A stretch of 41,766 nucleotides of DNA. Source: Candidatus Alcyoniella australis (lineage in GTDB: Bacteria > Lernaellota > Lernaellaia > JAVCCG01 > Alcyoniellaceae). Under the pieces are notes generated by a model, which saw only the letters and a program-made list of their open reading frames with translations, was not told the DNA's origin and made no database searches. Location of the stretch: the NCBI GenBank assembly GCA_030765605.1, contig JAVCCG010000110.1, positions 1 through 41,766 of the forward strand, in the 5' to 3' direction. This document shows, piece by piece, positions 2 to 26,232 of the stretch (within the stretch, counting starts at the first letter, position 1; the number at the start of each line of letters is the position of its first letter). The translations under genes were made by a program, and so were the position numbers.

Positions 2-1447
2 AAGAAGTCGGCTGTTGAGAGCGACGCCCTGCGCAGCGAGGCGCAGATCCTGCGCCAACGGCTGGAGCAGGAGGGAACCAAGCACCAGGACGAGCTCAAG
101 CAGCTGACCAAGGAGCGCGACGAGCGGCTGCGCGCTTTGCAGACGCAGCTCGAGGCCAAAGATCTGCGCCACGAGCAGCTGATGGCCGAGTCGGCCAAGA
201 AGTCGGCGATCGAGACCGACGCCCTGCGTAGCGAGGCGCAAAACCTGCGCCAGCGGTTGGAGCAGGAGGGGACCAAGCTTCAGGACGAGATCAAGCAGCT
301 GAGCTTGGAGCGTGACGAGCGGCTGCGCGCGCTGCAAACGCAGCTTGAGGCCAAGGACCTACGCCACGAGCAGCAGCTGACCGAGGTTTCGCGCAAGGCG
401 GCCGTCGAGGTTGAGCCGTTGCAATCCGAGATCAGCCGACTGCGCGAGCGGCTCGAACAGGGGCAGATCAAGCACCAGGACGAGACCAAACAACTCAGCC
501 GCGAGCGTGACGAGACGTTGCGGCAGATGCAGCAGAAGCTCGAGCGCCAGGCCGAGCGGCACGAGCAGGCGTTGCTCGAGTCCGGCCGCAAGGCCGATAA
601 AGAGATCGAACGCCTCACCGGCCAGCTGGACAAGCTGCGCGAACGTTCCGAGTCGGCCGAGCGCGAGCTCAGCAGCGGCTCGGCCAAGCTGCGCGAGCAG
701 TTCAGCGAGACGTTGGCGCAACGCGAGCAGGCATTGGAGAGCCTGCGTCTGGAGATGGAGCAGGTCGCCGAGCAGGTCGAGCAGCACCGCGGCCGGATCG
801 AGGCCAAGGACGCGTTGCTCAAGCAGCAGACCGAGCACGCGGACCACGAGTCGGAACGCTCACTCGATCTTAGCAAAGAGCTCGATGCTCTGCGCCAGGC
901 CCACCAGACCGTGCAGGCGGCGCACGCCGAGCTGGCCGCGGGCTCGCGCGCCAGGGTCGAGCAGCTCGATCAGCTGATCAACGAGCGCGACGGCCGACTG
1001 CAGGCGGTTGAGGCCCGGATCGGCGACCTGGGCGCGATGATCGAGTCCCAACGCGAGCAGGTGGCGCAACGCCAGGCGCGCATCGACGAGCTGGCGCGCA
1101 CGCTGGGCGAGCGTGATCGCAGCGTAGCCCAGCAGGGCATGGCCCTCGACGTGGCGCGGATCGATCTCGAGCGCCGGGCCGCGGAAGTGAACGACATGAC
1201 GCGCGAGATCAAGGGCCTGCGGCGCGAGTACGACATCTCGAGTCGGCTGGTCGAAGATTTGCGGCAGCGCCCCGGAGGCAGACGTCGACGCAAGCTGCGC
1301 CGCGCCTCGGGCAGGCTGCTGCGCCAGGCCCCGCGCTTTTGGTACCTGTGGATCGTGAACCTGGTCACTAATTTCTACATGGACAAATGGCAGCGCCGCA
1401 CCGGCCGCAAGATCTTCCCGGGCAACCACAAGGGGAAGGGCCAATGA
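2..1447 (+). CDS. Coiled-coil repeat protein with basic/hydrophobic C-terminus (5' end outside window)
   Basis: The frame is open from the first bases of the window, so the N-terminus is missing; the first possible start inside (TTG at 137) falls in the middle of a repeat and is not a real start. Nearly all visible residues are heptad-like, rich in E, Q, R, K and L, and predict a long coiled coil. The first part is built from three 65-residue repeats, then degenerates. The last 60 residues change character: a strongly basic stretch (RRRRK) is followed by an aromatic-hydrophobic segment (FWYLWIVNLVTNFYM) and another basic tail, which could bind a membrane surface. Its stop overlaps the start of the glycosyltransferase gene (ATGA), so it is probably co-translated with it. 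A scaffold or length-ruler role beside glycosyltransferases, as for WbdD in O-antigen synthesis, is inference. No catalytic domain is visible in this part. Confidence 0.85.
   Translation, partial: KKSAVESDALRSEAQILRQRLEQEGTKHQDELKQLTKERDERLRALQTQLEAKDLRHEQLMAESAKKSAIETDALRSEAQNLRQRLEQEGTKLQDEIKQLSLERDERLRALQTQLEAKDLRHEQQLTEVSRKAAVEVEPLQSEISRLRERLEQGQIKHQDETKQLSRERDETLRQMQQKLERQAERHEQALLESGRKADKEIERLTGQLDKLRERSESAERELSSGSAKLREQFSETLAQREQALESLRLEMEQVAEQVEQHRGRIEAKDALLKQQTEHADHESERSLDLSKELDALRQAHQTVQAAHAELAAGSRARVEQLDQLINERDGRLQAVEARIGDLGAMIESQREQVAQRQARIDELARTLGERDRSVAQQGMALDVARIDLERRAAEVNDMTREIKGLRREYDISSRLVEDLRQRPGGRRRRKLRRASGRLLRQAPRFWYLWIVNLVTNFYMDKWQRRTGRKIFPGNHKGKGQ
23..607 (+). repeat. 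Three in-frame 195-bp (65-residue) tandem repeats
   Basis: Units run at about 23-217, 218-412 and 413-607. Each starts near a D/E-x-L-x-SE motif, contains RLEQ, KQL and RDE motifs, and ends with a KKSAxE-like motif. The first two units are almost identical in DNA; the third is more diverged and a fourth, weaker copy starts at 608. The period is exactly 195 bp, so the units are a multiple of both the codon and a coiled-coil repeat length. More copies may lie upstream of the window. Confidence 0.85.
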
Positions 1448-4107
1448 AGATCCTGATGCTCCACCCCCACGACATCTACAGCAACCACGAGCCGTGGACC
1501 GTGCGGATCACCTACATCGCCAGCGAGTTCGTCAAGCGCGGCCACGAGGTGCGGCTGATCTACCATTTGATCGACCCCAAGACGCCGCTGGAGGACGCGA
1601 CCAAGCGCCAGGAGTACCCGTTCGTCACGATCCCGGCCTACCGCTACCAGTTCGCGCTGCTGGCCAAGATGCGCAGCACGGTCGAGTTCGCGCGCTGGGC
1701 CGACGTGATCCATTTCCAGAAGTGCTTTGCCCACGTCTCGGCCCCGGCGATCTGGGCCGGTCGCAAGCTGGGCAAGCCGCTGCACTACGATTGGGACGAC
1801 TGGGAGTACGGCATTTACAACTACAACCCGCCCAACCGGATGGTGGGCTACAACATCGACGTGTTCGAGAAGCTCGTGCCGCGGATGGTGGACACGGTCT
1901 CCTACGCCTCCGATGGGCTGCACCAGATGGCGCTGGATTACGGCGTGCCCGGCCAGCGGCTGTTCGAGGCGCACGTGGGCGCGGACATCGAGCGCTTCCA
2001 CCCGGGGATCGACGGCTCGCGCATCAGACAGATTCACGACATCAGCGGCCCGATCGTGCTCTACCTGGGGCAGCTCCACGGCGCGCAGTACGCCGAGCTG
2101 TTCCTGCAGGCGGCCAAGATCGTGATGCAGCACAACTCGGAGTGCACGTTCCTGGTGGTCGGCGGCGGCGATCGTTTCGGCGAGCTGTACCAACTGGCCG
2201 AGGCGCTGGGCATCAACCACCGCTTCGTGTTCACCGGGCCGGTGGATCACGATCAGGTGCCGCTGTACATCGCCGAGGCCGACGTGGCAGTGGCCGCGTT
2301 CGCCGACACCGCCCAGACCCGCTGCAAGAGCCCGCTGAAGATCGTCGAGTACTTGGCGATGGGCAAGGCGATCGTCGCCTCGCGCATGGGCGAGGTGATC
2401 AACATGGTCGGCGACAGCGGTGTGCTGGTCCAGCCCGGCGACGCCGACGAGATGGCCGACGGCATTCTGCGGCTGTTGGCCGACCCGGACCTGCGGCGGC
2501 GATTGGGCCAGGGTGCGCGGCAACGCGCCGAACAGAAGTACAACTGGGGCGTGACCGCCGAGAACCTGCTCAGCGCCTACCAGCTGGCCCTGGAGGAGCG
2601 GCGCTGGCTGTACTGGAAGCAAAAAAAAAACAAGGAACATAACAAAGCGCTGACGCCTCAGCCAAAGCCGCGGCCCGCTTCTATAAAAAAATCGCCGCCC
2701 CCCAATGCCGCTCCCGCCGTCGAGCAGGCTAGCGCGGCATTCGATCTTGACGACGAGGACCGTCCCGAGACCCAGACCGCCGGGCCGGGGATCAACCCGC
2801 ACCTGGTGATGGAGCGCGGCGATGTGGGCGAGGCGCCCGAACAACGGTCGGGCACAGACGGCCCGGCCATCGCCCTGCCGCTGGACAAAGCCCGCGGACC
2901 GTTGGGCCGGCTGATTCATCACAACCTCGATATCGTCGGCGTGCTCGACGGCGAGTACGCCTACGTCGGACCGCACACATTGCAGCTGGATCCGACCAAC
3001 CGCTGCAACAACGACTGCCTGGCCTGCTGGTGCCGCAGCCCGCTGCTGCTGGACAAGGCGCTGCCCGCGGAGCAGCGCTCCCAAACCCTGCCGATCGAGA
3101 TGATCGAGCAACTGCTCGACGACATCGCGGCGATGGGCAGCAAGGAGGTCTACGTTGCAGGCGGCGGCGAGCCGTACATGCATCCGCAGATCCAGCGCAT
3201 CATCCAGGGCATCAAGAGCCACAACCTGGTGTGCAACATCAACACCAACTTCACGCTGATCGACGAGCAGCGCCTGCAACAGCTGATCGAGGCGCCGGTC
3301 GATTACATGAACATCAGCGTCTGGGCCGGCAGCCCCGAGACCTACTCGCTGCTGCACCCGAACAAGACCGAGGAGACTTTCCACCAGATCCGCAAGACGC
3401 TCACGCGGCTGAACAAAGAGAAACGCGAGGTCCCACGGATCAAGGTCTACCACGTGATCAGCAATTTGAACTTCCACGAGATCGACAAGATGATCGACTT
3501 CGCCCGCGACACGGGCAGCGAGTCGGTGGAGTTCACAGTGGTCGACACGATTCCCGCACGCACCGACGGCCTGCTGCTCAACGAGCAACAGCGCGCGCAG
3601 CTCTACCAGGATGCGCTGGATGCGCGGGAGCGGCTGGCGGCCTCGGGCGATCCGCTGATCCTCTTTCGCTTTGATCAGTTTCTGCGGCGGATCTCAGCCG
3701 ACCACACCACTGTGGGCGAGCACGACCGCACGATCATCGACACCATGCCCTGTACCGTGGGTTGGCAGTTTGCGCGGGTGCTGGCCGACGGCAACGTCAA
3801 CTCCTGCCTCAAGAGCCACCGGATTCCGATCGGCAATTTGCACCAGACCGGGTTCCGCGAGCTGTGGAATGGCTCACGTCAGCGCGAGTTCCGGCTCAAG
3901 GCCAACGTCAAAGAGAAGCGCGATCCGTATTTCCGCTACATCGGCAACGACCCGGACGCGCAGATCGGCTGCTACAAGTCGTGCGACGACCTGGGACGCA
4001 TCGAGCACATGAAGATGCGCATCGACAGTCTCTCACCGCACAAGCGCGCGATCCTCAAGGCCGTGGCGCGGCGCTACCGCCGACGCAACAGGATGATCGG
4101 CGGATGA
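1444..4107 (+). CDS. GT4 glycosyltransferase fused to radical SAM/SPASM domain
   Basis: The 887-residue protein starts at the ATG that overlaps the upstream stop (ATGA); the frame is open further upstream but the MKILMLHPHD start is typical of GT-B glycosyltransferases. Residues 1 to about 395 form a GT4 (group 1) glycosyltransferase, with the sugar-nucleotide binding motif SPLKIVEYLAMGKAIVAS around K299 and E302. A low-complexity linker of about 95 residues rich in K, P and A follows. From about residue 490 there is a radical SAM domain with C521-x3-C525-x2-C528 (CNNDCLAC), a GGGEP motif, and a SPASM-like C-terminal part with further cysteines (CTVGW, CLKS, CYKSC). The radical SAM half is paralogous to that of the gene at 4736. 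Substrates are unknown; the acceptor or product may be a surface saccharide. The linker is encoded by A10, A7 and C6 homopolymers, so the fusion itself should be verified. Confidence 0.88.
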   Translation: MKILMLHPHDIYSNHEPWTVRITYIASEFVKRGHEVRLIYHLIDPKTPLEDATKRQEYPFVTIPAYRYQFALLAKMRSTVEFARWADVIHFQKCFAHVSAPAIWAGRKLGKPLHYDWDDWEYGIYNYNPPNRMVGYNIDVFEKLVPRMVDTVSYASDGLHQMALDYGVPGQRLFEAHVGADIERFHPGIDGSRIRQIHDISGPIVLYLGQLHGAQYAELFLQAAKIVMQHNSECTFLVVGGGDRFGELYQLAEALGINHRFVFTGPVDHDQVPLYIAEADVAVAAFADTAQTRCKSPLKIVEYLAMGKAIVASRMGEVINMVGDSGVLVQPGDADEMADGILRLLADPDLRRRLGQGARQRAEQKYNWGVTAENLLSAYQLALEERRWLYWKQKKNKEHNKALTPQPKPRPASIKKSPPPNAAPAVEQASAAFDLDDEDRPETQTAGPGINPHLVMERGDVGEAPEQRSGTDGPAIALPLDKARGPLGRLIHHNLDIVGVLDGEYAYVGPHTLQLDPTNRCNNDCLACWCRSPLLLDKALPAEQRSQTLPIEMIEQLLDDIAAMGSKEVYVAGGGEPYMHPQIQRIIQGIKSHNLVCNINTNFTLIDEQRLQQLIEAPVDYMNISVWAGSPETYSLLHPNKTEETFHQIRKTLTRLNKEKREVPRIKVYHVISNLNFHEIDKMIDFARDTGSESVEFTVVDTIPARTDGLLLNEQQRAQLYQDALDARERLAASGDPLILFRFDQFLRRISADHTTVGEHDRTIIDTMPCTVGWQFARVLADGNVNSCLKSHRIPIGNLHQTGFRELWNGSRQREFRLKANVKEKRDPYFRYIGNDPDAQIGCYKSCDDLGRIEHMKMRIDSLSPHKRAILKAVARRYRRRNRMIGG
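2621..2630 (+). other. A10 homopolymer at the GT4/radical SAM junction, possible slippage site
   Basis: Ten consecutive A residues lie in otherwise GC-rich coding DNA, exactly where the glycosyltransferase domain ends (codon about 393). Adding one A to the transcript would bring TAA at 2640-2642 into frame; losing one A would bring TGA at 2651-2653 into frame. Either event would release the glycosyltransferase as a free protein. A7 at 2685-2691 and C6 at 2698-2703 follow in the same linker. Runs of nine or more A are known sites of transcriptional slippage; use here is inference, and a sequencing error is the main alternative. Confidence 0.5.
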
Positions 4108-4739
4108 GCGGGCGGCTGGTCTACTCCGATACGCGCGACGGCCGAATGTGGCGGGTCAAGCTGCCATTGGTGGAGCACCGCGTGCTCGATGACCCGACGG
4201 CGCAGGTGGCAAAGCTGCTGGCCGATGACAAAATCGTCGGCTGGTTCTACGGCGCCTCCGAGTTCGGCCCGCGGGCCCTGGGCCAGCGCAGCATCCTGGC
4301 CGACCCGCGTTCGACCACGGTGGTCGCGCGGCTCAACGAACAGATCAAGCATCGCCAGTGGTTCCGGCCTTACGCTCCGGCAGTGCTCGCCGATCAGGTC
4401 TCGCGCTATTTCGAGCTCGACGCGCCCAGCCCGCACATGTTGCTGGTGGCGCCGGTGCGCGAGCAGTGGCGCGAGCGACTGCCGGCGATTACCCACGTCG
4501 ACGGCACAGCCCGAATCCAGACCGTGACCCGCGAGGACAACGCGCCGCTGTTCGCTTTGCTGACGCAGTTTGAAAAGCTCAGCGGCGTGGGCGTGCTGCT
4601 CAACACCAGCTTCAACGATCACGGCGAGCCGATCGTCGAGTCACCGGCCGACGCACTGGCCGAGTTCCTTGCCGTGGAGCTCGACGCGCTGGTGATCCAG
4701 GACGTGCTGGTCACCAAGCATCGGGCGGAGCAGCGTTGA
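4104..4739 (+). CDS. Stand-alone C-terminal half of a NodU/CmcH-type carbamoyltransferase
   Basis: The 211-residue protein starts at an ATG overlapping the previous stop (ATGA). It carries only the C-terminal carbamoyltransferase domain: EFGPRALGQRSILADPR from E53, then WFRPYAPAVL, the HVDGTARIQTV motif and LLNTSFNDHGEPIV, ending with the usual ALVIQDVLV-like strand. The Kae1-like N-terminal half, which is needed for carbamoyladenylate chemistry in this family, is absent here but is encoded by the next gene. Complete family members such as the gene at 10508 are about 570 residues. The two halves probably assemble into one enzyme that transfers a carbamoyl group to a hydroxyl of a sugar or other acceptor. 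The short N-terminal extension (about 25 residues) is unassigned. Confidence 0.88.
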   Translation: MSGRLVYSDTRDGRMWRVKLPLVEHRVLDDPTAQVAKLLADDKIVGWFYGASEFGPRALGQRSILADPRSTTVVARLNEQIKHRQWFRPYAPAVLADQVSRYFELDAPSPHMLLVAPVREQWRERLPAITHVDGTARIQTVTREDNAPLFALLTQFEKLSGVGVLLNTSFNDHGEPIVESPADALAEFLAVELDALVIQDVLVTKHRAEQR

Positions 4740-7426
4740 GCGCGCTGAAGATCGTGGGCAGTGTGGTCTCGGATCACGATTCGAGCGTCTGCCTGCTGGT
4801 CGATGGCCGCGTGGTCTGCTGCGTCAACGAGGAGCGGCTGGCCCGCGTGCGCCGCGGCGACAAGCGCAACTCGATCCGCCGCGCGCTGCACGCTTGCCTG
4901 GACCAAGCTGGCTTGACCTTGGACCAGGTGGACTGGATCTTCTGCGATACGGCGACCTACTATCCGCCGGACCACGACCCGGTGGACGTGTTCCCCGACT
5001 TTGAGCGCAAGGATCGCGTGGTGCAGCTCGCTCATCATCTGGGGCATATCTCGAGCGCATTTTTTCCAAGCGGCTTTAGCGACGCGGCCGTGCTCTCGGT
5101 GGACGCCTCGGGCGGGATCCCGCCGCTGGTCCCCGACCGTTGCCACTGGGGATTACTGCCGCACGAGGTCGAGTTCCGCGACCGCGGTTTTACGGTAAGC
5201 CATTGCAATCCGACCCTCGCGCAACTGCTCGAGCAGGACCGCGGCGGCGAAGCGCGCAACTATCCTTCGGAATCGCTCAGCGCCTGCACGGCGCGACGCG
5301 GCGAGAAGATAGTCGAGCTGTTCGAGCACGGCCCGAACGCGAGCATGGGTTACTTCTACGCCCTGGTCGCGCACTTCCTCGGGATGGAGGAGGGCAGTTT
5401 CATGGGACTTAGCTCCCACGGATCGGACAGCCCGTTCTACGAGACCATGCAGCGCATCATCCGCCTTGAGCCCGAGGGCGTTGTGCGCATTGATGAAGAT
5501 TGGATGTGCTGGTGGCAAGGCGACCGGGTGCTGGACGACCCGGTGAACCTCAAGCGTTTGGGCCGCCGTTTCTTTGAGGCGTTCGGCGATCCCAAGGCGC
5601 CCAGCGACGCGATCGAGCAGCGCCACAAGGACCTGGCCTGGGCCACGCAACGTCGGCTCGAGGACGTGCTGGTGCACGTGGCCGCCGACCTGCAGCGCCG
5701 CAGCGGACTGGAGAACATCTGCGTGGCCGGCGGCGTGGGCCTGAACTCGGTGGCCAACCAGATCATCGTCGACCGCACGCCGTTTAAACGGATCTTCATC
5801 CAACCCGGCGCGGCGGACGACGGCATTGCCCTGGGAAACGCGCTGTTCGGCCATTACGTGCTGTGCGGCTTACCGCGAACCGGCAGCTTCAGCATGGGAT
5901 CGGCCGCACTGGGTCCGCGCTATGAGCAGCGGCAAGTGCTCGATCTGCTCGCGAACTACGATCAACGGCGCTGGCCCGTGCGCTACTATCCCTCGATCCC
6001 GTTCTGCCGTGAGGTGATTTGCCATTACAGCCTCGATGGCAATCCCGAACAGTCGCTGACCCTCGATCCGCCCCAGGGCGCGGGCCCCTTCAGCGGTGCG
6101 CTCGAACTTCACGCGGCGCGTGCGGTGGAATACCGCTTCGAGGTGATCGGCGACCCGCTGCTCTATCTAATTAAAACCGAGCCCGCGACCGACGAGGCCG
6201 CCAGCGAGGATCAGCCGCAGCAATCAGAGCTGCACGGCGGCAAGGCCGATCAGTACCACAAATTCCTGCGCGACAACCTCGACCTGGCCGGCGTGTTCAA
6301 CGGCGAGCAGGCGTACGTCGGCCCGTCGATCGTGACCATCGATCCCACCAACCGTTGCAACAACAACTGCATCGGCTGCTGGACGCGCTCTCCGTTGCTC
6401 GGCGATGAGATGCAGAGCGCCCAGTGGATGAACCTCGAGCTGCCCGGCAAGCTGATCCGCGAGCTGATCGATCAGCTGCACGAGCTTCGCACCAAGCAAG
6501 TGCGCTTCACCGGCGGCGGCGAGCCGTTCATGCACCCCGAGCTGCTCGAGCTGATGGCCCACGTCAAGGATCGGGGAATGGGCTGCGCGGTGACCACCAA
6601 CTTCTCGGTGATGAAACCCGAGTGGGTCAGCCGCATGGCGGCGCTGGAGCTCGACGAGGTGACGGTCAGCCTCTGGGCGGGGACGCCCGAGGTTTACGGC
6701 CGCAGCCATCCGAGCAAAACCGCGCGCACCTTTGAGCGCATCGAGGCCCACCTACGCCAGCTATGCGCGGAGAAGACCGAGCGCACCAAGGTGCTGCTGG
6801 CCAACGTGCTGTTCTCGATGAACTTCATGGAGACGCGCGAGATGCTCGACTTCGCCCTGCGCGTGGGTGCCGACGGCATCTACTTCACCCTGGTCGACTC
6901 GGTGAGCCACAAGACCGACGGGCTGCTGCTCACGCCGCCGCACGTGGAGGTGCTCACCGAACATCTCGAGCAGGTGCGGCAGCGCGTGGCCCAACTACCG
7001 CCCGAGCGCAGCTTTGTACTGGACAACTACGAGGGATTGATGCGTAGGCTTGGGCAAGGCGACGTGCAAAACGGCCGCTACGACCTGCGCACGGTCGATC
7101 AGGTGCCCTGCGCGGTGGGCTGGATTTTCAGCCGGGTATTGGCCGACGGCGATGTGGCGCCGTGCTGCCGCGGCTCGGACAAGCCGATGGGCAACCTCTT
7201 TAAGGAGAGCTTCAAGCAGATCTGGAACGGCGAACGCTACCGCGAGTTTAGGCGCATGGCGCTGAACAAGCGCAAGTCCGATCCGTACTTTCGCGAGATC
7301 GATTGCTACCGCACCTGCGACAACTTGATGCACAACGAACAATTGCAACGCCGGATGGAGGCGTTGAGCGAGACCGAACATAAATATCTTGAACGCGATT
7401 ATCACGAGGTGGTGGACGAGAAATGA
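4736..7426 (+). CDS. N-terminal half of carbamoyltransferase fused to radical SAM/SPASM domain
   Basis: The 896-residue protein starts at TTG overlapping the previous stop (TTGA). Residues 1 to about 400 form the N-terminal (Kae1/YrdC-associated type) carbamoyltransferase domain: DHDSS near residue 14, NEERLAR, the metal-site HHLGH at H100-H104, a VDASGG strand, CVAGGVGLNSVANQ and QPGAADDGIALGNA. The C-terminal carbamoyltransferase domain is missing and is found in the gene just upstream. Residues about 400-505 contain an unassigned, probably beta-rich segment. From about residue 510 a radical SAM cassette follows, with C541-x3-C545-x2-C548 (CNNNCIGC), a GGGEP motif and SPASM-like cysteines (CAVGW, CCRGS, CYRTC). 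This cassette is paralogous to the one in the gene at 1444. A bifunctional carbamoylating and radical-modifying role on one acceptor is inference. Confidence 0.88.
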   Translation: MSALKIVGSVVSDHDSSVCLLVDGRVVCCVNEERLARVRRGDKRNSIRRALHACLDQAGLTLDQVDWIFCDTATYYPPDHDPVDVFPDFERKDRVVQLAHHLGHISSAFFPSGFSDAAVLSVDASGGIPPLVPDRCHWGLLPHEVEFRDRGFTVSHCNPTLAQLLEQDRGGEARNYPSESLSACTARRGEKIVELFEHGPNASMGYFYALVAHFLGMEEGSFMGLSSHGSDSPFYETMQRIIRLEPEGVVRIDEDWMCWWQGDRVLDDPVNLKRLGRRFFEAFGDPKAPSDAIEQRHKDLAWATQRRLEDVLVHVAADLQRRSGLENICVAGGVGLNSVANQIIVDRTPFKRIFIQPGAADDGIALGNALFGHYVLCGLPRTGSFSMGSAALGPRYEQRQVLDLLANYDQRRWPVRYYPSIPFCREVICHYSLDGNPEQSLTLDPPQGAGPFSGALELHAARAVEYRFEVIGDPLLYLIKTEPATDEAASEDQPQQSELHGGKADQYHKFLRDNLDLAGVFNGEQAYVGPSIVTIDPTNRCNNNCIGCWTRSPLLGDEMQSAQWMNLELPGKLIRELIDQLHELRTKQVRFTGGGEPFMHPELLELMAHVKDRGMGCAVTTNFSVMKPEWVSRMAALELDEVTVSLWAGTPEVYGRSHPSKTARTFERIEAHLRQLCAEKTERTKVLLANVLFSMNFMETREMLDFALRVGADGIYFTLVDSVSHKTDGLLLTPPHVEVLTEHLEQVRQRVAQLPPERSFVLDNYEGLMRRLGQGDVQNGRYDLRTVDQVPCAVGWIFSRVLADGDVAPCCRGSDKPMGNLFKESFKQIWNGERYREFRRMALNKRKSDPYFREIDCYRTCDNLMHNEQLQRRMEALSETEHKYLERDYHEVVDEK

Positions 7427-8379
7427 GTAAGGCATTGGTAACAGGCGGAGCGGGATTTATCGGCAGCCACATGGCGCAGCGGCTGCTCGATCTGGACTGG
7501 GACGTGACCGTGATCGACAACGAATCCACGGGCAACCCGGCCAACGTGCCAAAGGGCGTGCGCTACATTAAGGGCGACGTGCGCAATCGCCGTGAGCTGG
7601 CCGCGGCCTTTGACCAACCGCTTGATCTGGTGGTGCACATCGCCGGGCAGGCCTCGACGATCCGCAGTTTTCTCGACCCGGCGGACGACTTGTCGGTCAA
7701 CGTCAACGGCGCGATCGAGGTGATGCAGGCCGTGGTCGAGCATCGCGTGCCGCGCGTACTTTACGCCTCGAGCATGACCGCCTATGGCCTTCCCCAGCGG
7801 CTGCCCGTGACCGAGGACGACCCGACCCTGCCGGTGAGCTACTACGGCATTACCAAGCTCGCGGCCGAACGCTATCTGTTGGCCACGGGCATGCGCAGCG
7901 ATTTGGACGCGCCGCCGAATGTCACGGCGTTTCGCATGTTCAACGTCTACGGTCCGCGACAGAGCCTGTCCAACCCCTACCAGGGTGTGCTGGCGATCTT
8001 TATCAACGCCGCGTTGCGCGGTCTGCCGATCGTGATCCACTCCGATGGCGAGCAGTCGCGCGACTTCATATTTATCGACGACGTGGTCAACGCCTGGATC
8101 GCGGCGATCGACAAGCCCGCGTCCTACGGCCAGGTGTTCAACCTGGGCTCGGGCACGCTGCTGACCGTCAACCGGCTGGTCGACTCGGTGCTCGCGGATT
8201 TGGGCAAGACGCGCGAGGACTACGAGGTGCGCTACGAGCCGGTGCGGCCCGGAGACCAGCGCCACATGCAGGCCAAGATTGCCAAGGCCGCGCAGCTGCT
8301 GGACTGGCAACCGCAGGTGACGTTCGAGCAGGGATTGCAACGAACCATCCAATGGGCCAAGACCGAGGAGGAGAGTTGA
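7423..8379 (+). CDS. NAD-dependent epimerase/dehydratase (extended SDR, UDP-glucose 4-epimerase-like)
   Basis: The 318-residue protein starts at ATG overlapping the previous stop. The N-terminal GGAGFIGSH dinucleotide-binding motif, an ASSMTAYG strand and the catalytic Y141-x3-K145 (YGITK) identify an extended short-chain dehydrogenase/reductase. RMFNVYGPRQ, SRDFIFIDDVV and FNLGSGTLLTV are the usual motifs of nucleotide-sugar epimerases such as GalE and WbpP. It probably epimerises or dehydrates a nucleotide sugar in the cytoplasm to supply the glycosyltransferase in this operon. The exact sugar cannot be read from the sequence. Confidence 0.9.
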   Translation: MSKALVTGGAGFIGSHMAQRLLDLDWDVTVIDNESTGNPANVPKGVRYIKGDVRNRRELAAAFDQPLDLVVHIAGQASTIRSFLDPADDLSVNVNGAIEVMQAVVEHRVPRVLYASSMTAYGLPQRLPVTEDDPTLPVSYYGITKLAAERYLLATGMRSDLDAPPNVTAFRMFNVYGPRQSLSNPYQGVLAIFINAALRGLPIVIHSDGEQSRDFIFIDDVVNAWIAAIDKPASYGQVFNLGSGTLLTVNRLVDSVLADLGKTREDYEVRYEPVRPGDQRHMQAKIAKAAQLLDWQPQVTFEQGLQRTIQWAKTEEES

Positions 8380-9392: not shown

Positions 9393-9393
9393 C

Positions 9394-9398
9394 GGAGG
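9394..9398 (+). promoter_or_regulatory. Ribosome binding site (GGAGG) supporting a TTG start
   Basis: GGAGG lies four bases before TTG at 9403, just after the upstream stop, and supports this non-ATG start for the radical SAM gene. Confidence 0.65.
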
Positions 9399-9402
9399 AT
9401 CG

Positions 9403-10500: not shown

Positions 10501-10507
10501 GCGGACG

Positions 10508-12214: not shown

Positions 12215-15200
12215 AAGCCCAGCAGATCGTCGAGCAGTACGACCGGCCGCGGATGGTGATGATCCAGACCACCGGCCGCTGCAACTCCAGCTGCGTGATT
12301 TGCCCATATCCCAAACTGCGCCGCGAGCTGCCCCAGGGCGAGATGGACCAAGGTCTGTTCGAGGACCTGCTCGCCCAGTGCGCGCAGATCGGCGGGTTCG
12401 AGCGCGCGATGGTCTACCTGATGAACGAGCCGCTGCTCGATCCGCTGATCGTCGAGCGCATCGACGCGGTCAAGGCGGCGCTGCCCGAGGCCAAGGTGCA
12501 CATCCTGACCAACGGCGCGGCGCTTACCCCGCGGCTGAGCGAGCGGCTGCTCGAATCGGGCCTGGACTGGATCGGTTTCTCGGTGCACGCCAACACCACC
12601 GAGACCTACCGCCAGGTCTGCGGACGCAAAGACTTTGCGATAATCCGCGGCCGGATTGTGAATTTTATCCAGCGTGCGCAGCAGCTCAAGGACCCCAACT
12701 ACTCGATGGTCAACATCTACCACGTGCGGCCCTACGTCAGCGACGCGGAGTTTGACCAGGCCGCGCAATTCTGGCGCGACCAGGGCGTGCAGCGCCTCGA
12801 CCTTTATCAGGGGTACGTCAGCCGCGCGGGCAACGTCGAGGTCTTTGGACACAAACCGCTACGGCACGACGTTCTCGCGGGCTGCCGCACGGTCTGGGCC
12901 TACCGCATGCTGCACGTGCTCCACGACGGCTCGGTGATTCCGTGCTGCATGGACTGGGCTCGCTCCGAAATCTGGGGCGATCTGAACAAACGTAGCGTGC
13001 TCGACATCTGGCGCGGTCCCGAGCGCCTGGAGTTTCTGCGGCGGGCCTGCGGCCAAGATGATGCTGACGAAGATTTCATCTGCCTGCACTGCGAGGACGC
13101 GATCGCGGAGCAATCCGAGCAGGCCGAACAGGCCGAGCAGGCCAAGCAGCCGACGGACGAGGCGGCCCAATATCCTGCTGCTGCCGTGGTCGAGGTTTCG
13201 GCGATTGCAACGGCAGAGGGTTCGCAGGCTCAGGATGAGGGTCAAGCCGCGGACGACAAGCAAGCAACGGACGATGAGCAGGATCCCTGCGTACTGCTGT
13301 TGCAGCTTCCGCCGTGGCTGCCGGCCAACCCGCCGTTGGGCCTGGCCTGCCTCTCGCGCTATTGCGCGGACGCCGGATTCCGCGCCGAGGTCTTTGATCT
13401 CAACATCGAGCTTTACGGCAGTAGCGACGAGCCCACGCGGCAGCTTTGGCAGTGGGAGCGCGGGGTGTTCTGGGAGGACGAGACCCAGATCGAGCAGCGC
13501 TTCGGCGCGCAGTGGGATCGTTGGGCGCAACGTGTGCTCGATCATCCGGCGCAACTGATCGGCATCTCGGCCTACGATCGTCGCGAGAGCGCCATCGTGC
13601 TGCTTGTCAGACGTTTGCGGCAGGCAGGCGAGCAAAGGCCGATCGTGCTCGGAGGCCCCGGCGTGCTCTCGGATAAGCTGCGACAGCTTTATTGCGGGCG
13701 GCTGCCGGGGATGATCGACGGCTTCGTGCTGCGCGAGGGCGAGCAAACGTTGGTCGAGATCTGTCGCGCGCTGGAACAGGGGCGGGATTTTGACGGCCTG
13801 CCCGGCGTGCTGACCGTTGATCCGCAGACCGGCGAGGAGCGCTACACGCCGCGGGCTGCGCTCGCTGCGGACCAGATTCCCTCGCCGACCTTCGATGGCT
13901 TTGACGTGGCGGCCTACACCGACAAGAGCCTGGGGTTGGAGTGGAGCCGCGGCTGCCTCAACGCCTGCGCGTTTTGCCAGGTCAACAAGTTCTGGCGCGG
14001 GTATCGCGCCAAGCCCGCGGCGCAGGCCGTGGCCGAGATCGTCAAGCTACACCGTCGCCACGGCATTGAGTACTTCTCGCTGGCCGACTCGCTGCTCAAC
14101 GGCGACGCGGAAAATCTGGCAAAGATCGCCGATGGCCTGATCGACGCGGGACTGCCAATCCGCTGGTCGGCCGGAATCGCGATCCATCCGCCGCTGCCCG
14201 ACGCGCTGTTTGATAAATTGGCGCGATCCGGCTGCTTCAGATTGGAGTTCGGCCTGGAGAGCGGCTCGGATCGGGTGCTGAAGTTGATGGGCAAACGCAA
14301 CAACGGCGACGACGCGGCGCGAGCCGTGCGCCTGGCCCACGCTACGGGGATCGAGGCCGTGCTCTACCTGATCGTCGGCTATCCGGGCGAGACCGAGGAC
14401 GACGTCGATCAGACAATCGACTGGCTTGAGCGCAACGCCCAACACGTCGATCTGGTACGTAGTCTCAACGGGCTAATCATCCTCGACGACAGCCCGCTTT
14501 TTAAAAAGGCGCGCAGCCTGGACATCGAGATGCCCGATTGTTCCGAGCCGGGCTGGGGCGCGCGTTGGGCCGTGGGCGAGAATACGCCCGAGACTCGCGT
14601 GGCGCGCATCGATCGCGTACGCGCGGCCCTGGAGCGTCTGGGCGTGCCCGTGGAGTTCTCCAATCGCGACGAGGTGCTGCCCACCCCGGCGTTCATCGAC
14701 GAGCGGATCGCCGGAATCAGCACGCGGCTGGATCAGCAGATCGGGCGGCTGAACAACGTTGAGGCGAGCATCGATCGGTTGCTGCAAGCCGGGCCGCGTC
14801 CGATTCGGCCGGGGTACGGCGGGCTGATGCTGGTGCTGCCGCCGGTGTGGGGTACGCAAATGCCGCCGCTGGGACTTGCATACGTAGCGGCCTTTGTGCA
14901 GTCCCAGGGCTACGATCCGCTGATTTGGGACCTCAACGCCTACATGGCGCGCAACGTCGAGGATCGGACCGCCGCGCTGTGGCAGGAGAACAACTTCCGC
15001 AACTGGACCGACGTCGACCGCTTTCCCGAGGTGCTGCGGCTGATCCGGCCGCAGCTTGAGGCCGCGGCCGAGCGGATCGTGGGCACCGGTCGGCGGGTGA
15101 TCGCCTTCTCGGTATACAGCCCCAACCGCGCGGCGGCCATCGAGCTGGCGCGGATGATCCGGCAACGCGCGCCTGATCGGGTGATCATCGCCGGCGGGCG

Positions 15201-18200
15201 CGGGGTGACCACGCACAACGAGCGTCTGCTGTTTCCGCCGGACGTGTTCGACGCGCTGGTTGTGGGCGAGGGCGAGACCGCGATCGTGCCGCTGATCGAG
15301 GCGATCTTCGACAATCGCGACATTGAACCGTTCCCGGGCGTGGTAGTGCCCGGCGGCGAGGCCTGGACCGAGCTTACCCCGCGCGAGCCGTGCGACGATC
15401 TGGCATTGCTGCCGTTCCCGACCTACGAGGGGTTCGACATAGGCCTCTACGGCGAGCCGGAACAGGAGCCGGAATTGCCGCTACTGTTCAGCCGCTCGTG
15501 CATCAAACGCTGCGCTTTTTGCAACGACCACGGGGCCATGGGCCGCTTCCGCGCGCGCCCACCCGAACACATGCTGGCCGAGATCCGCTATCACGTAACG
15601 CACAACGGCAGGCGGCGCTTCCGCTTTAACGACCAGCTGATCAACGGCGACCTGCGCAAGCTCGAGCGCCTCTGCGAGCTGCTGATCGACAGCGGACTGG
15701 GAGTGGAGTGGATCGCGCTGGCAGCCCCGCGCGGCGAGATGAGCGCCGAGCTGTTCGCCAAGATGCGCGCCGCGGGCTGCTACACGCTGAACTTCGGCGT
15801 GGAGTCCGGCTCGGACAAGGTGCTCAAGGCGATGAACAAGGGCTTCAGCACGGACGATGCGGCCCGCAGCATCCAACGCGCACGGCAGGCCGGCATCAAC
15901 ACCATGCTCAACTTCATTGTCGGCTTTCCCGGTGAGACTGAACAGGACTTCGAACTTACCATGCGCTTCATCGAGCAGCACCGCGAGCACATATGCGGCA
16001 TCACCAGCGTTAACTCGCTGATCCTGCTCGAGGGCTCACCGATATTTGATGACGCGGAGCGTCACGGGATCGTGCTGCCCAAGCGCAACGCGGATCTCGA
16101 ATGGTTCATTCCGCAGCTCAACACGCCGCAGATGCGACGCGAGCGCGCCCAGCGACTAGTGCAAAAGATCCGCGAACTCGACCTGCACTTTCTGGTGAGC
16201 AACCTTGAGGAGCGCGTGGACGACCCGACCGCGATCGAGGCCCGACCCGATGCCGATCAGCCCTGCGGGCCCTCGGAACCCGAGGAGCCGTGTGCGGTCT
16301 GTGACGAGCAGCCCGCGTCTCCGGGCATGCGCCCTGGAGAGCAAGACCCGATGCGCGACCAGCGCGGCACGCCGCGGCTGGAACAGATCGACAAGGGGCC
16401 GTTCGACGTGCTGCTGCTGCTGCCGCCGGTATGGGGTGTGGGCGTGGCGCCGTTGGGAATCGCCTACCTCGAGCAGGCGCTGCTCGACGCCGGGATCAAA
16501 GTCGGTTGCCTGGACCTGAACATTAAACTCTACAATCGCACCGACCGTCCCGAGCTGTGGACCATGGAGAGTTACAAGGCCTGGACCGACCCCGAGCAGT
16601 GGCGGCCGACCGTGGAGTCGATGTCAGAGCTGTTCGAGCACTACCTGGATCAGATTCTGGCCGTGGACGCGCCGATCATCGGCTTATCGACCTTCACCAG
16701 CAACATCGAGGTGGCGCTGGAGATCGCGCGGCGCATCAAGCAACGGCAGCCGAAGCGCACGCTGATCTTCGGCGGGCCGGGGATGTCCAACAGCTTTGAG
16801 CCCAATCGTATCGGACCGGAGAACGGCGACTTCGTGATCTTCGGCGAGGCCGAACACAGTTTGGTCCAGCTGGTGCGTGCGCTGCTTGGCGAGGGATTCC
16901 AGAGCGGGATCGAGGGCGTGCGTCGCGCCGGGGACACCGCGGACGTGTTGCAGATCGAACGGTCGATCGTGCTCAAGCCCGGGGAGTTGCAGTTCCCGCG
17001 CTTTCATTCGATACGCCTCGAGGAGTACTCCAGCCGCGCGGCGCCGCTTTTGGCCAGCCGCGGCTGCGTGCGACGCTGTACGTTTTGCAACGACCACCAC
17101 ATCTACCGCAAGTACCGCGGGCGTTCGGCCCAGGACGTGTTCGACGAGATTCGCTTTCACTTTGAGCAGGGGCGCACCGAGTTCACGTTCAACGACGTAC
17201 TGATCAACGGCAACGTGCGCGAGCTGCGAGGGCTGTGCAAGTTGATCGTCGACGCCGGGATGGAGATCCACTGGGGCGGACAGGGCGTGGTCCGCAAGGA
17301 GATGGATTTCGAAACCCTGAGCCTGATGCGCGCCGCGGGCTGCATGAGCATGGTTTACGGCGTGGAGTCGTTCTCGGACAAAGTGCTTAAGTTGATGAAC
17401 AAGCCGTACACCAAGGCGATGTGCATCGACGTGCTGGGCGCCACGCGGCAAGCGGGGATGGAAGCGATCATCAACATCATCGTCGGCTTCCCCGGCGAGA
17501 CTGAGGACGACTTCCGCGAGACCTACGATTTTTTGATCGAGCACCGTGGGCTGATCGACCAGGTGGCGTCGATTTCGCCGTGCCTGGTCAACCTCGGAGC
17601 GCCGCTGCAACGCGACTTTCAAAAGTACGGCATCGTTTTTCCCAAGGACGAGCCGTCGGTCAAGTGGTCCACCGCGGACGGCGAGAACACCTTTGAGGTG
17701 CGCCGCCGCCGACTGTTGCGGATCACCAACCTGGTGGCCGAGTGGGACAAGTCGATCCATACCATCAACCTCTACGACGACGAGCGCGACAATCTGCGCG
17801 AGATCGAGGCCTCCGAGGGAATCAGCAAACAGGCGCCGCGCGAACGTCTGGACGAAAGCAGCGGCCCGCTGCTGCTGCTGAGTATGGCGCCGCCGTGGGG
17901 CGTGGAGTTTCCGCCGCTGGGTCTGGCCGCGCTGGCGACCAGCGCGCGCGAGGCGGGCCACGCGGTAAGCGCCTACGACCTGAACATGGCGATGTACGAT
18001 GCGGCGGACGAGCAGCATCGCAGCTGGTGGCAGCTGGAGCACCTCAAGTTTTGGGAGGAGCCCGAACACCTGCAACAAATCCTTAGACATACCGCCGATG
18101 TGTTCGAGGCGTTTGTGGAGCGCGCGGCCCAGGGAGAGGAGCCGCTGGTCGGGCTGACCGTACACGCGGGCAACTTCCGGCTGAGCATGCGGCTGATCGA

Positions 18201-19287
18201 GCTGATTAAAAAGAGCAACCCGCAAAAGAAGGTGCTGCTAGGCGGCCCGGGGGTGTTCTTCGAGGCCGACCGACGCCTGATTCCGGCCGGGCTGGTCGAT
18301 GGCATAGTCGTTGGCGAGGGCGAGGCCACGCTCAATGAACTGCTCGATGCTTTCAAGGCCCATGGTGAGCTGCGCGAGACTGCGGGCCTGCTGCTCAAGG
18401 ACAAACCCTACAGCGAACGGCAGCCGATCCGGCCGCTGGAGGAACTGCCCACGCCGCTGTTCGAGGACTTCGACCTCGATCTTTATCAGAGCAACAAGCT
18501 GCCGGTGATGTTCGGCCGCGGCTGCATCGGCAAGTGCGCCTTTTGCAACGACCACCAGCTGATCGCGGGTTATCGCATGAAACGGCCCGAGACCATGCTG
18601 CGCGAGATCATGCACTACAGCGAGCGCTATACAGTGGGCGCGTTTGCCTTTAACGATCTGATCCTCAACGCCTCGCGCCCAAGGCTACTCCAGTTTGCGC
18701 GGCTGGTGATCGACGCGGACCTGTCGATCCGCTGGACAGGACAGGCGGTAATCGATCCGCAGATGACGGTCGACGATTTTGCGCTGCTCAAGCGCGCGGG
18801 CTGCGACAGCCTGGTCTTTGGGGTGGAGAGTTTCTCGGACCGCGTGCTTACGCTGATGGGCAAGCGCTTCAGCGGCGAGCAGGCGTTGCAATGCCTGGAG
18901 CGCTGCCGCCAAGGCGGAGTCGAGGCGCACATCAACCTGATCGTCGGCTTCCCCGGCGAGGGGCGGCAGGATTTCGCGCAGACCCTCGAGGCGCTGGTTG
19001 AGCACTCCGGATTGATCGACCGCGTCTCAGCGGTTTCGACCTGCATCATCGTGCCAAGTTGCGACCTGGAACGGAATCCCGAGCGCTATGATATTGTCTT
19101 GCCCGACGAGCACCACTGGCGGCTGTGGCGCACCTCCGACAACCAAAACACTTACGAGATCAGGCGCGAGCGGTTGGTCGAGTTGATCGCGGCTCTCGAT
19201 CGATTGGGGATCGAGCACGGAATGCACAACCTATACCTCGAATCGCTGGACGAGGACGAGCCACAGCGCCCGGATCAGCACGATTGA
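12211..19287 (+). CDS. 2358-residue protein: radical SAM/SPASM plus four tandem B12-binding radical SAM modules
   Basis: The start is GTG overlapping the previous stop. Residues 1 to about 290 are a radical SAM/SPASM module with C24-x3-C28-x2-C31 and auxiliary cysteines (IPCCMDW, CLHC). A Q/E/A-rich linker of about 60 residues follows. Four homologous units start near residues 360, 871, 1397 and 1885. Each has an N-terminal Rossmann-like cobalamin-binding domain (PPxW near the start, PPLGLA or similar, a GGPG or GGRG turn, then a GEGE- or GEAE-type loop) and a radical SAM domain with CxxxCxxC at C582, C1097, C1619 and C2105. Each also has a DxLxNG-like strand, GxESxSDxVLxxM and VGFPGE or VGYPGE. 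This is the class B (cobalamin-dependent) radical SAM layout, whose known members are often methylases but also do ring contraction and other chemistry. Typical members have one unit of about 450-550 residues, so a five-site fusion is exceptional. The substrate is unknown. Confidence 0.9.
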   Translation: MKAQQIVEQYDRPRMVMIQTTGRCNSSCVICPYPKLRRELPQGEMDQGLFEDLLAQCAQIGGFERAMVYLMNEPLLDPLIVERIDAVKAALPEAKVHILTNGAALTPRLSERLLESGLDWIGFSVHANTTETYRQVCGRKDFAIIRGRIVNFIQRAQQLKDPNYSMVNIYHVRPYVSDAEFDQAAQFWRDQGVQRLDLYQGYVSRAGNVEVFGHKPLRHDVLAGCRTVWAYRMLHVLHDGSVIPCCMDWARSEIWGDLNKRSVLDIWRGPERLEFLRRACGQDDADEDFICLHCEDAIAEQSEQAEQAEQAKQPTDEAAQYPAAAVVEVSAIATAEGSQAQDEGQAADDKQATDDEQDPCVLLLQLPPWLPANPPLGLACLSRYCADAGFRAEVFDLNIELYGSSDEPTRQLWQWERGVFWEDETQIEQRFGAQWDRWAQRVLDHPAQLIGISAYDRRESAIVLLVRRLRQAGEQRPIVLGGPGVLSDKLRQLYCGRLPGMIDGFVLREGEQTLVEICRALEQGRDFDGLPGVLTVDPQTGEERYTPRAALAADQIPSPTFDGFDVAAYTDKSLGLEWSRGCLNACAFCQVNKFWRGYRAKPAAQAVAEIVKLHRRHGIEYFSLADSLLNGDAENLAKIADGLIDAGLPIRWSAGIAIHPPLPDALFDKLARSGCFRLEFGLESGSDRVLKLMGKRNNGDDAARAVRLAHATGIEAVLYLIVGYPGETEDDVDQTIDWLERNAQHVDLVRSLNGLIILDDSPLFKKARSLDIEMPDCSEPGWGARWAVGENTPETRVARIDRVRAALERLGVPVEFSNRDEVLPTPAFIDERIAGISTRLDQQIGRLNNVEASIDRLLQAGPRPIRPGYGGLMLVLPPVWGTQMPPLGLAYVAAFVQSQGYDPLIWDLNAYMARNVEDRTAALWQENNFRNWTDVDRFPEVLRLIRPQLEAAAERIVGTGRRVIAFSVYSPNRAAAIELARMIRQRAPDRVIIAGGRGVTTHNERLLFPPDVFDALVVGEGETAIVPLIEAIFDNRDIEPFPGVVVPGGEAWTELTPREPCDDLALLPFPTYEGFDIGLYGEPEQEPELPLLFSRSCIKRCAFCNDHGAMGRFRARPPEHMLAEIRYHVTHNGRRRFRFNDQLINGDLRKLERLCELLIDSGLGVEWIALAAPRGEMSAELFAKMRAAGCYTLNFGVESGSDKVLKAMNKGFSTDDAARSIQRARQAGINTMLNFIVGFPGETEQDFELTMRFIEQHREHICGITSVNSLILLEGSPIFDDAERHGIVLPKRNADLEWFIPQLNTPQMRRERAQRLVQKIRELDLHFLVSNLEERVDDPTAIEARPDADQPCGPSEPEEPCAVCDEQPASPGMRPGEQDPMRDQRGTPRLEQIDKGPFDVLLLLPPVWGVGVAPLGIAYLEQALLDAGIKVGCLDLNIKLYNRTDRPELWTMESYKAWTDPEQWRPTVESMSELFEHYLDQILAVDAPIIGLSTFTSNIEVALEIARRIKQRQPKRTLIFGGPGMSNSFEPNRIGPENGDFVIFGEAEHSLVQLVRALLGEGFQSGIEGVRRAGDTADVLQIERSIVLKPGELQFPRFHSIRLEEYSSRAAPLLASRGCVRRCTFCNDHHIYRKYRGRSAQDVFDEIRFHFEQGRTEFTFNDVLINGNVRELRGLCKLIVDAGMEIHWGGQGVVRKEMDFETLSLMRAAGCMSMVYGVESFSDKVLKLMNKPYTKAMCIDVLGATRQAGMEAIINIIVGFPGETEDDFRETYDFLIEHRGLIDQVASISPCLVNLGAPLQRDFQKYGIVFPKDEPSVKWSTADGENTFEVRRRRLLRITNLVAEWDKSIHTINLYDDERDNLREIEASEGISKQAPRERLDESSGPLLLLSMAPPWGVEFPPLGLAALATSAREAGHAVSAYDLNMAMYDAADEQHRSWWQLEHLKFWEEPEHLQQILRHTADVFEAFVERAAQGEEPLVGLTVHAGNFRLSMRLIELIKKSNPQKKVLLGGPGVFFEADRRLIPAGLVDGIVVGEGEATLNELLDAFKAHGELRETAGLLLKDKPYSERQPIRPLEELPTPLFEDFDLDLYQSNKLPVMFGRGCIGKCAFCNDHQLIAGYRMKRPETMLREIMHYSERYTVGAFAFNDLILNASRPRLLQFARLVIDADLSIRWTGQAVIDPQMTVDDFALLKRAGCDSLVFGVESFSDRVLTLMGKRFSGEQALQCLERCRQGGVEAHINLIVGFPGEGRQDFAQTLEALVEHSGLIDRVSAVSTCIIVPSCDLERNPERYDIVLPDEHHWRLWRTSDNQNTYEIRRERLVELIAALDRLGIEHGMHNLYLESLDEDEPQRPDQHD
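13117..13143 (+). repeat. 9-bp (E-Q-A) tandem repeat in interdomain linker
   Basis: Three tandem units of a GA[G/A]CAGGCC 9-mer encode EQA-EQA-EQA inside the flexible linker between the SPASM-type module and the first B12-binding module of the giant radical SAM protein. Such low-complexity DNA can vary in copy number; here it only lengthens the linker. Confidence 0.7.
13288..19287 (+). repeat. Four diverged tandem B12-radical SAM modules (about 490-525 residues each)
   Basis: Modules begin near 13288, 14818, 16399 and 17863. The distances between their first radical SAM cysteines are 515, 522 and 486 residues. Modules 2-4 of this array share C-x3-C-x-F-C-N-D-H and an F-N-D-x-(L/I)-(I/L)-N motif. 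The first module has CAFCQVN and LADSLLNG instead. The pattern implies successive internal duplications followed by divergence, with the first module the most different. Confidence 0.85.
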
Positions 19288-19317
19288 TCGATCTTTGACC
19301 GAATCTAAGATGACTCA

Positions 19318-20574
19318 ATGAGAAAGCAAACGCGCATCGGCAAGGCGGGAGCAGCTGGCATCGGCCGCAGGCTGCTGTTCTGGTCCGCCTTTGCGCTGAT
19401 CTGCTTCCTGGCTACGTTGATCGGCTTGGTCTGCCTCAACCAGGCGGCGGGCAAACTGCGACCGCAACCGCGGGCCGATGTCTACAAGCCGATCTACGAC
19501 TCGGACCAATGGCTGCCCTTTGTGCTCAAACCCGGAGCGCGGATCGATGCGCCCTACGGCGTCTACGGCCAGTACTCGGAACTGTTCGCCCGCTCGGACG
19601 CAACCTACGAGCTGAGCATCAACAGCCAAGGCTGTCGCGGTCCCGAGTTTGCGCTGCCCAAGCCGCCGGGCGTTTTGCGCGTGGTGCTGCTCGGCGATTC
19701 CTCGACTTTCGGCTGGGACACGCCCCTGGAAAAGACCTATGGCCGTCTACTCGAGGATGCGCTGCAACAGCGGTTCAGCGGTCAGACAATCGAGGTGGTC
19801 AATGCCGGCGAGCCCAACTTCTCATCGTGGTTCGGCCTGATCCACCTGGAACACCGCGTGCTGAGCTTTGAACCGGACTTGCTACTTGTCAGCTTCGGAC
19901 GTAACGACGAACTCGACACGGCGTTCAGCCCCCAGGACCTGAGCCGTAACCTGCCCGACAAGCAGCTTGTGCCGCGCGAGCTGGGATTTACCGCCAACAT
20001 GGAGTGGCTGACCAAGCGTTGCCAAGGCAACCAAGCGCGCGGGCCGCGCAACGTCCTGCGCAGCACTGCGCTCTATAGGCTGCTGGTGCGGCTGATTTAC
20101 GGCGAACAGCAGTACGAGGATCGCGGGATTGAGCTGCCGGAAGACGTGGTCTATCGCGTGAGCGTCCAGGACTACGAGGACAACCTACGCGAGATTGCGC
20201 GTCTGGCCCGCGCGGCGGGCGCCGACGTGCTGTTTATTGAGATCGGCGTGCTCCATCCGCAATACCGCGAGGCCATGGCGCGCGTTGCCGACGAGCTCGG
20301 CGCGCCGTTCCTGGGCACATTCGATCTGCAGATGATCTCGTCGGACTGGATCAAGGCGCAGCCGCGGTTGGCACAGGATCGCGAGCTGTTCCTCTCGATT
20401 CTGGGCGAGCCCGCGATGAACAGCAGCCCCGGCGGCTGGCTATGGTACACCACCGACTTTTGCCATCCCAACGCCATGGGGCACGCGGTGATCCACCGCG
20501 ACCTGGCGCCGCTGGTGATCGAGATTATCCAGCGGCGGCTTGCAGTCGGCCGCAGCCCATCCAGCGTACTCTGA
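19318..20574 (+). CDS. Membrane-anchored SGNH/GDSL-family hydrolase
   Basis: The 418-residue protein has a basic N-terminus followed by one hydrophobic segment at about residues 17-43, so the catalytic domain is probably exported and anchored. SGNH blocks are clear: GDSSTFGW with the nucleophile S128, NAGEPNFSS with the block II glycine, GRND with N196, and DFCHPN with D380 and H383 as the catalytic pair. Family members are esterases or acyltransferases, and related proteins de-acetylate or acetylate exopolysaccharides. It ends the co-directional block, 30 bases after the giant radical SAM gene, with no clear ribosome site. A role in trimming or acyl-modifying the product of this locus is inference from position. 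Confidence 0.85.
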   Translation: MRKQTRIGKAGAAGIGRRLLFWSAFALICFLATLIGLVCLNQAAGKLRPQPRADVYKPIYDSDQWLPFVLKPGARIDAPYGVYGQYSELFARSDATYELSINSQGCRGPEFALPKPPGVLRVVLLGDSSTFGWDTPLEKTYGRLLEDALQQRFSGQTIEVVNAGEPNFSSWFGLIHLEHRVLSFEPDLLLVSFGRNDELDTAFSPQDLSRNLPDKQLVPRELGFTANMEWLTKRCQGNQARGPRNVLRSTALYRLLVRLIYGEQQYEDRGIELPEDVVYRVSVQDYEDNLREIARLARAAGADVLFIEIGVLHPQYREAMARVADELGAPFLGTFDLQMISSDWIKAQPRLAQDRELFLSILGEPAMNSSPGGWLWYTTDFCHPNAMGHAVIHRDLAPLVIEIIQRRLAVGRSPSSVL

Positions 20575-26201: not shown

Positions 26202-26232
26202 CACGGCAAACAAGACGGCAGAGAACTAATAA

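Follow-up and report, generated by a model that had tools for sequence, protein, structure and literature searches.

A conserved radical SAM and carbamoyltransferase gene cluster in Candidatus Lernaellota that probably tailors a surface glycan

We analyzed a 41,766-nucleotide stretch of DNA (contig JAVCCG010000110.1, hereafter the window) from Candidatus Alcyoniella australis, a member of Candidatus Lernaellota (FEN-1099, alias Podoxiota; PMC11382960). Positions 2-20574 of the window hold a ten-gene cluster in which radical SAM (rSAM) domains are combined with a glycosyltransferase (GT), carbamoyltransferases, and sugar-nucleotide epimerases. It is likely that this cluster builds and radical-tailors a surface glycan of the outer membrane, of the lipopolysaccharide (LPS) or O-polysaccharide type. 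A sequence-only reading had modeled the product as a heavily modified surface glycan or glycoconjugate, and this model is now supported by homologues that travel together and by flanking genes that point to glycan synthesis.

All ten open reading frames (ORFs) lie on the forward strand and run in one direction, in the order coiled-coil tail, GT4-rSAM/SPASM, carbamoyltransferase C-terminal half (CarbC), carbamoyltransferase N-terminal half with rSAM/SPASM (CarbN-rSAM), SDR1, SDR2, stand-alone rSAM/SPASM, complete carbamoyltransferase (CarbNC), a protein termed GIANT, and SGNH hydrolase. Stop and start codons overlap by four bases at five of the nine junctions (1444, 4104, 4736, 7423, and 12211), taking the ATG at 7423, which includes the N-terminal GGAGFIGSH motif, as the start of SDR1; the other four junctions measure -28, +10, +7, and +30, so that the largest gap is 30 bases. 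Pfam analysis detected exactly eight Radical_SAM domains, five in GIANT and one each in GT4-rSAM, CarbN-rSAM, and the stand-alone rSAM protein, as well as four B12-binding domains, all in GIANT. The CxxxCxxC motif is intact in all eight rSAM cores. The genome as a whole carries 114 rSAM domains in 4.29 Mb (class range 90-138), and the eight observed at the locus compare with 0.55 expected under a uniform spread, a figure that is only a rough guide because five of the domains share one gene and are not independent. The co-directional ten-gene arrangement with four-base overlaps, the eight rSAM sites, the split and complete carbamoyltransferases, the two SDR sugar-nucleotide enzymes, the GT4 domain, and the SGNH hydrolase described in the sequence-only reading were all confirmed.

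Conservation was assessed across the seven genomes of the class, comprising that of the window (G000, f1), G001, G003, and G005 (f2), and G002, G004, and G006 (f3). Genes for GT4-rSAM, CarbN-rSAM, GIANT, and a GT-coiled-coil protein, described below, are kept in all seven. The f2 genomes maintain a single row in the order GT4-rSAM, CarbC, CarbN-rSAM, SDR1, stand-alone rSAM (absent in G003), CarbNC, an extra B12-rSAM gene (present in G001 and G003), and GIANT. In f3, the genes form two blocks, the first consisting of GT4-rSAM, CarbC, CarbN-rSAM, and rSAM, headed by the full GT-coiled-coil gene in G002 and by a short coiled-coil ORF in G004, and the second of CarbNC and GIANT, with the SGNH gene adjoining GIANT in G004 and G006 as it does in the window. 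The G006 gene call fuses the end of CarbNC to GIANT. Since kdtA and lpxD are also split in G005, the split GIANT and CarbN-rSAM genes of that genome were treated as probable frameshifts and left aside. Co-travel of the homologues, run as a check that could have overturned the surface-glycan model, was therefore borne out, in one row for f2 and in two blocks for f3.

The flanking genes of the f2 clusters belong to a lipid A/LPS operon. Upstream of the cluster in G003 are, in order, lysS, lolC, lolD, bamA, a 183-aa ORF, lpxD, lpxA, Gfo/Idh, lpxI, a 536-aa ORF, LpxB-PAP2, an ABC exporter, PMT, KdtA, and DUF885. The 183-aa and 536-aa ORFs are without a match, and the Gfo/Idh (UDP-GlcNAc 3-dehydrogenase model) and lpxI assignments fall below cut-off. 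G001 displays the same layout by gene size, with KdtA identified by Pfam, and in G005 pieces of kdtA and lpxD are found on the cluster contig within about 20 kb. Together with the GT-coiled-coil gene upstream in the window's genome and ABC-2 exporters at the Omnitrophota and Calescamantes loci described next, these flanks are in keeping with the glycan pathway that had been proposed.

A profile scan, in which gene calling relied on ORF length alone and may have misread GC-rich loci, recovered 21 related loci besides two Lernaellota records. Wherever both occur at these loci beyond the class, the rSAM/SPASM domain of the GT4-rSAM type precedes that of the CarbN-rSAM type, and the two are often fused; adjoining GT4 homologues are 44-61% identical. 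Arrays of G_A and B12-rSAM lie alongside in Omnitrophota, Wallbacteria (L079), and L086, and in Calescamantes (L096) without G_A. No carbamoyltransferase match was found at the loci beyond the class by the profile scan. The Omnitrophota locus L088 carries genes for ABC2_membrane, a 686-aa ABC ATPase, an O-antigen ligase, GT4, and GT2, L096 carries ABC2_membrane and an 854-aa ABC ATPase, and L092 carries an ABC ATPase. Of 379 genomes from other classes, selected independently of this trait, two contained a GT4-rSAM orthologue (E <= 1e-60), followed directly in both by the rSAM/SPASM domain of the CarbN-rSAM type. In one of these (L118) the GT4-rSAM gene is immediately preceded by a coiled-coil ORF, and a DegT aminotransferase gene is also present; the other is apparently the same locus as L082.

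GIANT (12211..19287, + strand; PF04055 x5, PF02310 x4) is a protein of 2358 aa composed of an N-terminal rSAM/SPASM domain (residues ~1-310) and four B12-binding/rSAM modules (351-846, 858-1370, 1381-1876, and 1878-2356). Each of the six other class genomes has an orthologue, fragmented in G005, with best matches of 42-48% identity. The B12-rSAM modules are 29-34% identical among themselves versus 39-51% to the module at the same position in five relatives. In a maximum-likelihood tree, modules 2, 3, and 4 each form one clade over the seven genomes (100/99-100), as does module 1 when the adjacent extra B12-rSAM gene of f2 is counted (100/100), and modules from Omnitrophota and Calescamantes branch between these position clades. 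The module clades are thus position-specific and probably older than the phylum, an age that is likely rather than certain because some of the deeper joints are weakly supported. The CxxxCxxC motif is kept in 28 of 28 GIANT B12-rSAM modules of the class and in all other modules listed.

Each GIANT module pairs a B12-binding domain with a CxxxCxxC rSAM core, as seen from the Pfam matches, the motif, and, for module 2, the predicted fold. The AlphaFold2 model of module 2 (predicted local distance difference test score, pLDDT, 89) was compared with known structures using Foldseek, and the closest match was TsrM by E-value and AprD4 by TM-score, with CysS, TokK, OxsB, and MgmA also near. AprD4 is a sugar diol dehydratase and is not known to use B12. 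The modeled fold would fit cobalamin methylases and AprD4-type deoxygenases alike, and C-methylation by the modules is plausible. Six class genomes also encode, away from the cluster, another tandem protein (L048-L053; contig C119 of G000 and relatives). It joins B12-rSAM modules to an rSAM/SPASM domain at the C-terminus and is ~2000 aa long, less in G004 (range 1498-2064 aa); in G005 it is in pieces (L054).

GT4-rSAM (1444..4107, +; PF00534/PF13692, PF04055, PF13186) joins a GT4 glycosyltransferase to an rSAM/SPASM domain within one protein. Its orthologues are 53-65% identical in G001-G005, and one is also present in G006.

CarbC (4104..4739, +) is a YrdC-like C-terminal carbamoyltransferase half encoded by its own gene and covered over its full length by PF16861, and CarbN-rSAM (4736..7426, +; PF02543, PF04055, PF13186) carries the Kae1-like N-terminal half followed by rSAM/SPASM. 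CarbNC (10508..12214, +; PF02543 and PF16861) is a complete O-carbamoyltransferase. The closest structures to CarbNC in the PDB are NovN (2.5e-64) and then TobZ (5.5e-59), and CarbC matches the NovN structure 9s2t at 1.5e-48 and keeps the GPRALGxRSIL motif. In CarbN-rSAM, the TobZ-like HHxxH and later Asp-Gly motifs are invariant across a five-sequence class alignment. The Kae1-like and YrdC-like domains, the metal-site His and Asp residues, and GPRALGxRSIL are all found both in CarbNC and in CarbC and CarbN-rSAM as complementary halves. From this sequence evidence, CarbC and CarbN-rSAM probably function as one enzyme working in trans. The AlphaFold model of CarbN-rSAM is good for the rSAM half only; over most of the CarbN half the pLDDT is under 50, a thin alignment being the probable cause. 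Between the two domains, residues ~410-500 are without a Pfam match and resemble a small beta-rich domain (strands at 465-481, low confidence). In a plasmid search, matches covered at most half of the query, and those listed fell on the carbamoyltransferase side.

The ORF at 2..1447 (+), which ends in ...KIFPGNHKGKGQ, had been read as a free-standing coiled-coil gene, but this was not borne out. The last 95 bases of the reverse complement of contig C112 are identical to the first 95 bases of the window, and because of this exact overlap, the ORF is very probably the 3' part of a GT-coiled-coil gene that begins on C112 and is cut by the contig end. The 5' part occupies bases 1-2302 on the reverse strand of C112, where Pfam matches the GT domain. 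The overlap sits within a 195-bp tandem repeat, with repeats at 1-514 of the window, and the assembled protein of ~1217 aa (767 + 481 - 31) is unsure in repeat number. It comprises a GT domain, a long charged coil, and a hydrophobic tail, in that order, with the coil judged by composition and SMC-type profile matches, without a dedicated coiled-coil predictor. The GT part is present in all seven class genomes. Proteins as called measure 807 aa in G002, 1009 in G003, 1187 in G001, and 618 in G004, and the range of 618 to about 1217 aa is partly affected by contig ends and gene calls; the G005 and G006 calls are without the tail. A similar hydrophobic tail was found at L067, L068, L079, L086, L078, L112, and L113.

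Near the GT-coiled-coil gene, methyltransferase-Wzt_C proteins are encoded in G002, G003, and G005. The Wzt_C match beside this gene in G002 was considered as an ABC exporter and rejected, since it is a methyltransferase-Wzt_C protein, with a thiolase after it. On C112 (L004 2305-3945 and 4201-6452), the GT-coiled-coil gene is immediately preceded by one for a PF01663 phosphodiesterase, beyond which an MBOAT gene with its partner runs in the opposite direction.

SDR1 (7423..8379, +; PF01370, with TIGR01179 below cut-off) is a UDP-glucose 4-epimerase-like sugar-nucleotide epimerase that matches 4zrm at 5.9e-49. SDR2 (8352..9392, +) is a close sequence relative of CDP-tyvelose 2-epimerase, matching 9rl0 at 1.1e-101 and 5.6e-95 to 1orr, well above other SDRs, and among the class loci read it was seen in the window alone. 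No CDP-glucose 4,6-dehydratase was found above the family cut-off across the class. The canonical CDP-tyvelose pathway was rejected on this ground, and SDR2 probably acts on another nucleotide sugar. The stand-alone rSAM/SPASM protein (9403..10500, +; PF04055, PF13186) has homologues of 44-46% identity at the class loci other than that of G003. The SGNH/GDSL hydrolase (19318..20574, +; PF13472), a membrane-anchored protein with a single N-terminal hydrophobic segment from residue 20, is a candidate glycan O-acyl enzyme. Convergent with its gene and 13 bases away is a gene (20588-24880, -) whose 1430-aa product has an NYN domain at its C-terminus, the rest being without a Pfam match at 1e-6. 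The genes scanned in the right flank (25091-41765) are apparently ordinary (PFK, TP_methylase, CN_hydrolase, SLT transglycosylase, M23 peptidase, CinA, T2SSE, and alanyl-tRNA synthetase), and 40680-41765 is without a match.

While the genes, their motifs, and their context are observed, we infer the substrate, product, exact chemistry, and order of steps as follows. GT4 and the GT-coiled-coil protein would assemble a lipid-linked glycan on the cytoplasmic side of the inner membrane, from nucleotide sugars provided by the SDRs, and the coiled coil possibly measures chain length or terminates the chain in the manner of WbdD. The rSAM/SPASM domains on the GT and on the carbamoyltransferase half, together with GIANT, would modify the sugars in a series of radical reactions, of which C-methylation is the most likely, or else deoxygenation or epimerization. 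The split and complete carbamoyltransferases would attach O-carbamoyl groups, and the SGNH and MBOAT enzymes may acylate the glycan after export. A more specific version of this scheme, possible but doubtful, is that GIANT constitutes an ordered array whose domains carry out different radical reactions one after another on the lipid-linked glycan, with the tethered rSAM domains of the GT and split carbamoyltransferase, in a system ancient enough for several uncultured phyla to share it. If the surface-glycan reading is right, radical chemistry modifies the glycans of uncultured Lernaellota, Omnitrophota, and their relatives, and GIANT offers a testable example of a multi-site radical enzyme, its modules having stayed distinct from a time that probably predates the phylum.

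Several observations weigh against a role in surface glycan synthesis. KdtA and LpxD are present in all seven class genomes, but in f3 and in the window's genome (G000) both lie on contigs other than that of the cluster. Of the genes scanned on C112 and in the window, none encodes a Wzm/Wzt exporter; one such pair is on C119. In f2, the GT-coiled-coil gene is on a separate contig or ~250 kb from the cluster. Moreover, the rSAM/SPASM fold, although nearest to the sugar-acting BlsE and DesII, is also close to the peptide maturases SkfB and SuiB. As separate observations, the C119 exporter (L071 8297-14324; ABC2_membrane and ABC_tran-Wzt_C) is interleaved with three rSAM genes, and an ORF set in G002 (L075) resembles this locus.

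The cluster might instead produce a secreted glycolipid or aminoglycoside-like secondary metabolite (cf. moenomycin and tobramycin), with sugars C-methylated by rSAM enzymes and O-carbamoylated. The proximity of CarbNC to NovN and TobZ, the presence of MoeE5 of moenomycin among the SDR relatives, and the cobalamin rSAM methylation of aminoglycoside sugars by GenK and GenD1 (PMC12689558) are consistent with this explanation. We nevertheless regard it as unlikely: the cluster is found in every class genome and adjoins the LPS operon in f2, a polyketide synthase, nonribosomal peptide synthetase, or scaffold gene was not seen among the genes scanned, and the related loci carry ABC-2 exporters and, in one case, an O-antigen ligase.

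The enzymes could also act not on sugars but on a lipid, such as the acyl chains of lipid A, polyprenol, or some other lipid of the membrane, given that relatives of the B12-rSAM modules include HpnJ, HpnR, and ladderane-type lipid models and that a lipid A operon adjoins the cluster in f2. The direct fusion of rSAM to GT4 and to a carbamoyltransferase half, and the sugar epimerases within the operon, make this quite improbable. Least probable of all is the maturation of a ribosomal peptide by the SPASM and B12-rSAM enzymes. The best NCBIfam scores of the GIANT modules are to models of C-methyltransferases of such peptides (rSAM_ocin_1 exceeds its cut-off only when the four modules are summed), and the resemblance to SkfB and SuiB points the same way. 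However, the gaps of at most 30 bases among the ten genes leave no room for a precursor gene, carbamoyltransferases, GTs, and nucleotide-sugar SDRs are atypical of peptide pathways, and the surroundings are LPS/glycan genes.

Radical SAM chemistry on bacterial surface polysaccharides has so far barely been described. No published account of such an rSAM glycan locus was found by title and abstract in the open-licence literature on rSAM with O-antigen, LPS and carbamoyltransferase, tandem or fused rSAM, and Omnitrophota, so that an earlier account outside it is possible. The components have known counterparts. O-polysaccharide terminators with a coiled-coil ruler include WbdD, Klebsiella pneumoniae O4 ORF7, and O12 WbbB (PMC11231755), and the GT-coiled-coil protein shares with these ABC-dependent terminators a catalytic head, a long coiled coil, and a membrane-type C-terminal tail in one protein; by analogy, it is perhaps a WbdD-like terminator or ruler. 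The locus also has glycan genes in common with ABC-dependent O-polysaccharide systems, with Wzt_C proteins or ABC-2 exporters near related loci, but differs in its eight rSAM domains and carbamoyltransferases and in having no ABC pair at the window locus. LPS-core carbamoylation has been attributed to the putative carbamoyltransferase WapO in Pseudomonas (PMC8005017). The locus carbamoyltransferases keep both domains and the catalytic-region motifs of TobZ, NovN, GdmN, and WapO, yet, unlike in these, one exists as two genes, the C-half before the N-half and thus in reversed order, with the N-half fused to rSAM/SPASM. Likewise, GIANT shares the predicted module fold, CxxxCxxC, and, at the sequence level, the B12-binding domain with TsrM, CysS, TokK, OxsB, MgmA, and AprD4, but unlike them carries four modules and rSAM/SPASM in one 2358-aa chain.

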